Assembly: GCA_944322725.1 (NCBI GenBank)
Contig: CALUPU010000001.1
Span: 1-64,000, forward strand
DNA length: 64,000 nt
Direction of reading: 5' to 3'
Origin: Candidatus Gastranaerophilales bacterium
GTDB taxonomy: Bacteria > Cyanobacteriota > Vampirovibrionia > Gastranaerophilales > Gastranaerophilaceae
The translations under genes and the position numbers were made by a program. A model generated the notes under the pieces. It was given only the letters and a program-made list of their open reading frames with translations, was not told the origin of the DNA and ran no database searches. Positions 1 to 54,675 of this stretch are shown here, piece after piece. Positions within the stretch are counted from its first letter, which is position 1, and each line of letters starts with the position of its first letter.

Positions 1-195
1 TCGAACCTGTTTCCGTTTCTACCTCTCGTAAAACCTGACATTTAGTCAGCTTTTACTCGGCAGAGTGGCCAACGGCACCATTTAAAAGACTTCGTAAGAG
101 GTCTTTTTTTGTCCGGAGTCGAACCTGTTCCCGTTTCTACCTCTCGTAAAACCTGACATTTAGTCAGCTTTTACTCGGCAGAGTGGCCAACGGCA
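1..195. repeat. Two tandem copies of a 77-bp structured, tRNA-like repeat (118-bp period)
   Basis: Positions 1-77 and 119-195 are identical except for one base (ttt versus tcc near position 11). Each copy holds a long hairpin: GTAAAA, a C/C mismatch, CTGAC, loop ATTTA, GTCAG, TTTTAC. On the minus strand each copy ends in a T-arm-like GGTTCGA, and copy 2 runs on as CTCCGGAC. It looks like a class II tRNA, but the T-stem and acceptor arm do not pair, so I do not call it a tRNA. The left copy is cut by the window edge. A related sequence lies beside tRNA-Lys near 54.4 kb (shared TCAGG, 5 nt, CGAGAGG, TAGAA, GTTCGAC). Confidence 0.8.
84..110 (+). terminator. Rho-independent terminator-like hairpin inside the repeat unit
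   Basis: AAAAGAC (84-90) pairs with GTCTTTT (101-107) around a 10-nt loop and is followed by more T. It lies between the two repeat copies, so each unit seems to carry its own terminator, as expected if the unit is transcribed. Confidence 0.6.
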
Positions 196-204
196 TTTTT
201 TTTA

Positions 205-227
205 ACTCTCTTCGGAGAATTTTTTTC
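205..227 (+). terminator. Short UUCG hairpin plus T-run after the second repeat copy
   Basis: TCTC, TTCG loop, GAGA, then seven T. The stem is short (4 bp plus an outer A-T), but the UUCG tetraloop and the T-run make a terminator plausible. Confidence 0.5.
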
Positions 228-6762: not shown

Positions 6763-7737
6763 ATGTTGACTGTTGAAGATTGCATTAATGATTTAAATAA
6801 AGCGGACTGGTATGAAAAAGAAGTGTCGAAAACAGGTATTTTGCAAAGTTTTCAAACAGTAAAGAAGTATGAAAGTTTGTTTTATCAAACGCATTCCTGC
6901 TACAGCAGGCATGAAAATCATGAGATAATTTCTGAATTGAGAAACAGAATTAAAAGCATACGGTTGAAAACACCTGATAATAATTATATTGATATATGGG
7001 ATATAAATCCGTATAAAGAAAAAAGATACATAATTTTCTGTCAGGGTATAAGCAGTGAAAAGAGCAATTTATACCAGCAAAAAGCGTATTTTTCATTTGT
7101 AGAAAACGGGTGGGGGGTAATAGCATTTGATTACAGAGGAAGAGGACGAAGCGAGGGCGAATTTTCTCAAGACGGAGCGCTTGATGATGTTAAGACAGTG
7201 TATAACTATTTAATATCAAAAGGGATAAAACCTGCAGATATAGGAATAATAGGACATTCAATGGGAACAGGTGTTGCTGTTGATTTTTCTTGCAGGATTA
7301 ACACTGCTTTTACAATACTTATCAACCCTTTTTCTAAAGCCTCGGATATGGCTAAAAATATAGCCAGGAAGGTAAAAATGCCTGCGTTGATTAAAAAAGT
7401 TCTTATGTTAATGCCGTCATTTTTGTTTCCTCTAAAAAATAAATTTGATAATGTTTCAGCACTTGCAAAAATAAAATCACCTGTGCTTATCCTCCATACC
7501 AGAAGAGACAGAACAATACCTGTTCAGCTTGCAAGAAAATTGTATAACAGTAACCAGAACTTTAATATTACATATCTTGAGATAGATGGAGACGACCATG
7601 AAATCAATCCCGAAAAAATTGATATATGTCTTGATTTTCTTCATCATGTTTATACAAGAATAAGCAAGTTTGTATTTTCGAATGTCTTATTGGGCACACA
7701 GCGAAAATGTCGAACAAGGCATTTTTTCTCTTTTTAA
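6763..7737 (+). CDS. Alpha/beta hydrolase (serine hydrolase, S33/BAAT-like)
   Basis: 324 aa, no signal peptide, cytoplasmic. The fold signals are clear: strand plus turn AFDYRGRGRSEG (about 121-132), nucleophile elbow GHSMG with S166, acid D249 in HTRRDRTIP, and catalytic H279 in GDDHE. The N-terminal 80 residues are an extra cap-like segment. Substrate is unknown; related proteins cleave acyl esters or thioesters or act as peptidases. Ribosome site GGAGG lies 8 bases before the ATG. The last 25 residues after the catalytic His are basic and atypical, so the native end may be poorly conserved. Confidence 0.85.
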   Translation: MLTVEDCINDLNKADWYEKEVSKTGILQSFQTVKKYESLFYQTHSCYSRHENHEIISELRNRIKSIRLKTPDNNYIDIWDINPYKEKRYIIFCQGISSEKSNLYQQKAYFSFVENGWGVIAFDYRGRGRSEGEFSQDGALDDVKTVYNYLISKGIKPADIGIIGHSMGTGVAVDFSCRINTAFTILINPFSKASDMAKNIARKVKMPALIKKVLMLMPSFLFPLKNKFDNVSALAKIKSPVLILHTRRDRTIPVQLARKLYNSNQNFNITYLEIDGDDHEINPEKIDICLDFLHHVYTRISKFVFSNVLLGTQRKCRTRHFFSF

Positions 7738-54290: not shown

Positions 54291-54333
54291 TCGCGGCAAA
54301 AAGGAATACAAATAATAAAAAATGCGTCACCCG
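54291..54333 (-). repeat. Duplicated tRNA-Lys 3' end, distal copy
   Basis: A 43-base copy of the sequence at 54437-54480. It covers the last 10 bases of tRNA-Lys (CGGGTGACGC on the minus strand), the discriminator A, a T-run and about 30 bases of flank. The copies differ by one A in the run. Confidence 0.9.
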
Positions 54334-54436
54334 GCTTCTCTTGAGTCGTAGGCGAGATACAGAAGCCGTACGAATCAGGATACCCGAGAGGGTAGAACGC
54401 GGATTGTTCGACCAACGGGAGAACAATTGCGGAGAA
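54334..54436. other. 103-bp structured insert between the tRNA-Lys 3'-end copies
   Basis: Three hairpins: GGCTTCT/AGAAGCC (around 54332-54375), TACCC-GAGA-GGGTA (around 54390-54404) and ATTGTTC/GAACAAT (around 54410-54430). The stretch TCAGG, five bases, CGAGAGG, then TAGAA and GTTCGAC is shared with the minus strand of the window-start repeat at the same spacing. No coding frame. It may be a small RNA or a non-coding mobile element. Confidence 0.6.
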
Positions 54437-54480
54437 TCGCGGCAAAAAGGAATACAAATAATAAAAAAATGCGTCACCCG
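54437..54480 (-). repeat. tRNA-Lys 3' end, native copy
   Basis: A 44-base match to 54291-54333 that runs into the complete tRNA-Lys gene. Confidence 0.9.
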
Positions 54481-54542
54481 CGATTCGAACGCGGGACCTA
54501 TCCCTTAAAAGGGGAGTGCTCTACCTGCTGAGCTAGTGACGC
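54470..54542 (-). tRNA. tRNA-Lys (UUU)
   Basis: Minus-strand cloverleaf: acceptor GCGTCAC/GTGACGC, D arm AGCTCAGCAGGTAGAGC, anticodon loop CTTTTAA (anticodon TTT) on stem TCCC/GGGA, T arm CGCGTTCGAATCGCG, discriminator A. CCA is not encoded; a T-run follows at once. In contrast, tRNA-Asp in this window encodes CCA. Confidence 0.97.
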
Positions 54543-54675
54543 ATTTTTTTATTAAATTTTCAATATGTTTCGGTTTTTATTCTTACGATAGAAACTGTCA
54601 TTTCCGAACCGCTTATTTAATGTAACAGGAACAAAAATTTCAGTCAACAGTTTTTTAAAAAATTCAATTACTCTA

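Follow-up and report, generated by a model that had tools for sequence, protein, structure and literature searches.

Short palindromic repeats with bulged stems, dispersed in many intergenic copies and combined into mosaics of several types, are known in bacteria as the REP, BIME and REPIN sequences with their RAYTs (Y1/HUH REP-associated tyrosine transposases). The repeat described here, a hairpin that we term E, shares these properties, and its host family, from a bacterial group whose members are known almost entirely through metagenomes (Candidatus Gastranaerophilales), possesses RAYTs; however, the RAYTs of this family have a different cognate GTAG repeat, and E is present in genomes without a RAYT and targets tRNA arms and hairpin tips. 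A second comparison is with the miniature elements derived from IS200/IS605 (PATEs), in that an element of ~250 bp, which has subterminal hairpins but lacks obvious terminal repeats, carries E in one of those hairpins. Unlike PATEs, E also occurs without any host element, and it sits inside a hairpin tip rather than defining ends. The palindromic elements of Rickettsia are hairpin-forming repeats able to enter genes, whereas E targets tRNA arms, is accompanied by a partial and partly inverted tRNA duplicate, and belongs to an unrelated lineage. Finally, integrative elements that use tyrosine integrases to target tRNA genes resemble E in that the insert lies between direct repeats of the tRNA end and an intact tRNA persists, but the E insert is gene-free and only ~90-130 bp long, and both ends of tRNA genes, as well as hairpins outside tRNAs, are hit.

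The stretch analysed (64,000 nucleotides, hereafter the window) starts at the first base of its contig, and its positions 1-77 and 119-195 match at 76 of 77 bases with a period of 118 bases, the sole mismatch being T/C at base 12. The tandem 77-base repeat reported in the preliminary description is therefore real, and the hairpin and T run that it placed after each copy are visible at 84-110 and 207-226; a consensus terminator scan listed neither of these, choosing instead the E hairpin itself. In each repeat unit, a 45-base E hairpin is embedded in an incomplete and partly inverted second copy of the tRNA-Leu(CAA) 3' end. The first E copy (22..66, minus strand), which reads ACTCTGCCGA, a 12-bp stem closed by TAAAT, and GAGAGG, scores 71.1 bits with the R1 covariance model, itself built in part from this very sequence; the second (140..184, minus strand) has the same sequence. 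The remaining pieces lie on the plus strand. A direct repeat of the tRNA-Leu 3' end (GGCCAACGGCACCA, 67..80) has the letters of the end of the intact gene at L021:6848-6934, and a duplicate of the tRNA-Leu terminator (AAAAGAC...GTCTTTTTTT, 84..110) is identical to the stretch after that gene on contig C4. A T-arm piece (GTCCGGAGTCGAACC, 111..125), which is supported by the inverted-copy test described below and by a comparison of loci, is inverted relative to the tRNA-Leu gene, being the reverse complement of the tRNA sense strand and part of a foldback around the insertion site; its counterpart in the first copy (TCGAACC, 1..7) is cut by the contig start and completed by contig C4. The second and outermost 3'-end repeat (GGCCAACGGCA, 185..195) is followed by a different terminator, a hairpin (TCTCTTCGGAGA) with a T run (207..226), and this is probably the original downstream flank of tRNA-Leu.

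The first 77 bases of the window are also the last 77 of contig C4, on which the intact tRNA-Leu(CAA) precedes the array. Because the end of C4 coincides with the window start, tRNA-Leu is likely to be followed in turn by its terminator, repeats 1 and 2, the other terminator, and the flank. To the left there is thus one intact tRNA-Leu(CAA) and not the long array of intact tRNA genes that was to count against the preliminary description. A further type of element stands upstream of tRNA-Leu(CAA) in most congeners (L243-L258, and also L021 at about 6765-6845), and in it an incomplete tRNA runs into CTGACCGTAGCGAAGCGGAGAA and then a D-arm in inverted orientation (CTACCAATTTCATCAC).

Because its minus strand carries tRNA-like letters, the repeat had been taken for a decayed or non-canonical class II tRNA. 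ARAGORN recognised only a tRNA-Asp and a tRNA-Lys in the window, and a search of several element types against Rfam 15 reached the gathering score for the tRNA family alone, with no family for E. The conserved part is a hairpin without tRNA features, and the tRNA-like letters (GTTCGAC, TAGAAC) come from the adjoining tRNA-Leu, in forward and inverted orientation. With an intact tRNA-Leu adjacent, and with copies of E remote from any tRNA, the tRNA interpretation is refuted and retains almost no probability.

The same description had tied the repeat to an insert at tRNA-Lys, and here the two parts of the proposal diverge. The five-motif order on which it relied is indeed found at a single place on each strand, from 118 on the minus strand and, with one additional base following CGAGAGG, at 54375 on the plus strand. 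In the orthologous tRNA-Lys inserts of three congeners, however, CGAGAGG is replaced (the hairpin being ACCCTTTAGGGTA, GCCCCAACGGGGTA or ACTCGAACGAGTA) and GTTCGAC is lost as well, the sole persisting motif being TCAGGAT...GTAGAACGCGGATTG. Since these motifs are not kept, and since the GAAC of TAGAAC derives from a tRNA T-arm at both loci, the resemblance is mostly coincidence plus common T-arm letters, and homology on the basis of the quoted motifs was rejected. The two loci are alike in their architecture, each having a structured insert placed 11-12 nt inside the 3' end of a tRNA gene and a direct repeat of the same tRNA end. The insert at tRNA-Lys (type 3; 54335..54438, plus strand) contains three hairpins and belongs to a different sequence family from E. 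It lies between direct repeats that comprise the tRNA end together with the flank downstream of it (about 54293-54334 and 54439-54480), beside an intact tRNA-Lys(TTT) detected by ARAGORN (54469..54543, minus strand), and the orthologous site is empty in six congeners and clearly filled by the type 3 insert in four. Within this insert (window 54293-54480), a core of ~60 nt (GAGTCGTAGGCGAG...GCCGTACGAATCAGGAT) is a dispersed repeat in congeners.

The suggestion that the window holds members of a family of small structured elements targeting the surroundings of tRNA genes has held up, and the family is far larger than the window could reveal. With the window repeat as query, the genome of origin yielded additional copies at further tRNA genes; it contains 16 occurrences of the core TGACTAAATGTCA, and all E copies but one lie within arrays that abut a tRNA gene. 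Exact core copies number 8-41 in each of 23 genomes of the genus, against 0-1 per strand for a reversed-pattern control. Within the order, 169 of 192 genomes have a match to the R1 model. E is present in ~165 of 170 genomes of the Gastranaerophilales family to which the window belongs, with zero copies in only 5 of the family genomes listed, and other families of the order yield weak matches in 4 genomes. In a search of the phylum, a match outside this family was seen in only one genome, and the hosts recovered in a scan of sequence collections were Candidatus Gastranaerophilales plus a few stray records (one Candidatus Caenarcanum and one labelled Acinetobacter). Model-based copy numbers per genome are to be read as 'at least' values, as scoring covered at most ~32 candidates per genome in the order search and 16 in the phylum search. 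The family is apparently undescribed: we found no account of it in the open literature, though subscription journals and preprints could still hold one.

Across 159 distinct type 1 copies, ACTCTGCCGA and GAGAGG are common to all and enclose a stem of variable sequence, giving an element of 41-49 nt. The pairing is supported by covariation in the 12-bp stem, where 55 distinct sequences contained 130 double-change cells as opposed to 39.5 in shuffles (0/500), and it collapses when the partner strand is slid. Loops are TAAAT, TAAGT, TGAGT, TGATA or triloops, and their apparent conservation is inflated, partly by construction, because both the regular expression and the model were seeded on copies with one core and loop sequence. 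Mismatches within the stem are strongly asymmetric (G-A/A-G 71 and G-G 45, versus C-T/T-C 3 and C-C 0), and this excess of purine-purine over pyrimidine mismatches (116 to 3) indicates that one strand is the structural one. Judging from these sequence patterns, selection seems to act on that strand as a folded molecule, either RNA or single-stranded DNA. By eye, the E consensus contains no attC-type boxes (RYYYAAC / GTTRRRY).

Copies of E are concentrated at tRNA genes. Among the 141 distinct copies with at least 200 bases of flank on each side, 88 (~62%) lie within 200 bp of a tRNA gene, against a rough estimate of ~1% for chance proximity from the number and size of tRNA genes. The association is polar: the 3' side of E points toward the intact tRNA in 100 of the 104 tRNA-near copies (all flanks included), 83 of these lying upstream of the tRNA in the sense orientation and 17 at its 3' end in antisense. 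Followed inward from either end of the gene, the unit opens with about 11 nt of the tRNA end and then E; next come a tRNA-arm piece in forward orientation and an inverted copy of the sequence across the insertion point, after which a duplicated leader or terminator leads to the intact tRNA. A test of the inverted copy at 92 copies of E gave scores of at least 20 in 33% of cases compared to 1.5% of controls, and a mean score of 15.9 at the element's own locus versus 10.8 at other loci. Direct repeats at tRNAs range from 11 nt to ~60 nt, and at many of these genes E replaces about 5-6 nt, namely the last bases of one stem strand together with some of the loop; the arm concerned is the D-arm when the sense strand is read and the T-arm when the antisense strand is. 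Most tRNA genes in these genomes are also preceded, at 10-30 nt from the tRNA 5' end, by a conserved TTGAAAATTNAATA motif (e.g., L213-L226), which apparently belongs to the pre-tRNA leader and not to a promoter.

Such proximity raises the possibility that the units are functional RNAs or attenuators of the neighbouring tRNA, with the partial tRNA, hairpin and inverted piece forming a cloverleaf-like switch. Units do fold better than their shuffles (z -3.4 to -6.1), those on the 5' side lie within the tRNA leader in sense, and tRNA-Leu(CAA) bears an E in most congeners. But the 3'-side units, including those of the window, are antisense to the tRNA and beyond its terminator, occupancy varies among congeners, some genomes of the family have no E, and many copies are situated far from tRNAs within dispersed miniature elements, all of which make a regulatory role for these units unlikely.

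Comparisons of orthologous sites reveal E as an insertion, as expected of a transposable element. At tRNA-Thr(GGT), five congeners are empty and others hold type 1 E, type 2 or a third type of hairpin in the same D-arm, the insertion point being after GCCTTTGTGGC and, for type 1, six bases further on. The leader of ssb-rpsR is empty in the form GTTAGTYYGGGC|GCAAACGCC, a small hairpin with GGGC at the junction, and when filled it contains a type 2 hairpin with a direct repeat of ~16 nt. The miniature element mentioned above (~250 bp, dispersed, TGTTCGAGAAAAATTCGTGATAAGGAGC ... CACTAGATTARAT, with subterminal hairpins; L551-L590) has the empty hairpin GATAAGGAGCAAAGCGACGTG and the filled forms GATAAGGAGC[E]AAGACGTG, GATAAG[E]TAAGTGACGTG and GATAAG[E]GAAATGACGTG, such that E enters at two or three points of the tip with few nucleotides changed and no target-site duplication. 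Recent bursts of this miniature element were found in G018, G006, G017, G007 and G002, which are mostly genomes without a match to a Y1 transposase. One further copy lies between tail and baseplate genes on a phage contig (L436:3448-3493), and it is the only credible viral copy that we found: other matches to a loose pattern in viral contigs were attributable to chance, the more demanding core-plus-GGYAG pattern had zero matches in these contigs, and collections of plasmids and annotated phages held no match to E.

A constant target duplication or terminal repeats, which a transposable element would also be expected to show, are not seen, since duplications amount to none in the miniature element, ~16 nt at ssb-rpsR and 11 to ~60 nt at tRNAs. 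We know of no transposase that yields target duplications varying from none to ~60 nt. It is conceivable that no enzyme is involved and that E spreads by microhomology-mediated template switching at forks stalled by hairpins, being copied into other stalled hairpins. The variable or absent duplications, the small deletions, the inverted target copies beside E, the hairpin-tip targets and the lack of any gene linked to E all suit such a process; yet it predicts ragged ends, and the same two ends of E recur whether it sits in a tRNA arm, a miniature element, a leader or a phage, so we regard enzyme-free spread as doubtful.

No open reading frame recurs beside E, whose neighbours are mostly ordinary genes; a phage-type integrase lies near E at 5 loci, as expected beside tRNAs. 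An autonomous relative with a transposase was encountered neither beside E nor by correlation with RAYTs or reverse transcriptases. The size of the unit (90-130 bp) excludes an integrase gene between the tRNA attachment sites. A larger element with E at both ends was rejected because inserts inside E are ~100-250 bp, too short for genes of note, and a reverse transcriptase was rejected given its presence in 6 of 15 E-rich versus 4 of 12 E-poor genomes, with none in the genome of origin.

A candidate that looked promising is a RAYT acting in trans on E as its REP-type repeat, as in REPINs. E is a bulged-stem hairpin in many interspersed copies; RAYT/Y1 genes are present in 123 of 383 family genomes, and in 8 of 15 E-rich versus 0 of 12 E-poor genomes; and several RAYT starts have an E, facing away from them, within the preceding 300 bp. 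However, most of the RAYTs examined have a classical GTAG-type palindrome of their own (GTAGGTTGGGC...GCCCAAC) directly at the gene, several of the RAYT-near copies are merely members of tRNA-side arrays, and a Y1 match is lacking in 15 of the 23 genomes of the genus, each of which has 8-41 core copies, so that neither a RAYT in the same genome nor flanking by the cognate repeat is a feature of E. We therefore rejected the RAYT as its cognate transposase, and consider movement of this kind improbable. Among the RAYT genes of the family, those at L303-L307 and L333-L356 carry at the gene a GTAG repeat of the classical kind, for example GTAGGTTGGGCATACCTGCCCAAC.

Because E departs in these respects from the repeat of a RAYT and from a constant duplication, and because it has neither an Rfam family nor a description that we could find, it is classed as a small structured interspersed repeat, REP/MITE-like in its working but with an unusual target rule. 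The explanation that we favour, to which we assign a probability of roughly 60%, is that E is a small non-coding mobile repeat that invades the tips of hairpins and whose functional form is a single-stranded hairpin. It draws direct support from the family and its distribution, structure, polar association with tRNA genes, target copies, empty and filled sites, and phage copy. Its targets have in common a short hairpin, with E in the 5' arm close to the loop. E would enter the 5' arm of a short pre-existing hairpin at or near its loop, replacing or displacing a few bases, and the form that moves may be a folded single strand. That its ends are the same everywhere makes a trans-acting enzyme likely, and tRNA genes would be the main targets because the D-arm (on the tRNA strand) and the T-arm (on the opposite strand) form short hairpins. 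At sites that must stay intact, such as tRNAs and the ssb-rpsR leader, survivors would be those holding a whole copy beside the broken one, leaving E in a truncated pseudo-copy next to a working gene, and recombination could then expand the unit into tandem arrays. The occurrence of duplications at tRNAs and ribosomal leaders and not in the miniature element fits this selection for survivors with an intact target, which may account for the duplications.

Several observations sit less comfortably with a mobile repeat: neither RAYT nor reverse transcriptase tracks E and no adjacent open reading frame recurs, the target duplications vary from none to ~60 nt, and some loci persist genus-wide (tRNA-Leu CAA), which could mean lengthy retention or a function instead of activity. 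A bolder version, which we offer only tentatively, is that E represents a distinct class of mobile DNA that swaps hairpin tips, defined by a loop-replacing hairpin, no constant duplication, no classical transposase and a niche in tRNA arms.

If E is mobile in this manner, it would constitute a family-wide and largely tRNA-directed repeat whose preference for hairpin tips is unlike that of described repeats, and it gives the search for an enzyme that acts on it a well-defined substrate. Units of this kind should not be called tRNA pseudogenes or sRNAs. The arrays also offer a reason for the breaks of contigs at tRNA genes in these genomes. In the genome of origin (G000), contigs end in or near tRNA-side E arrays at C1:1, C4:167049, C15:39871 and C17:1, and their presence at several contig ends indicates that the arrays are probably the cause of the assembly breaks.
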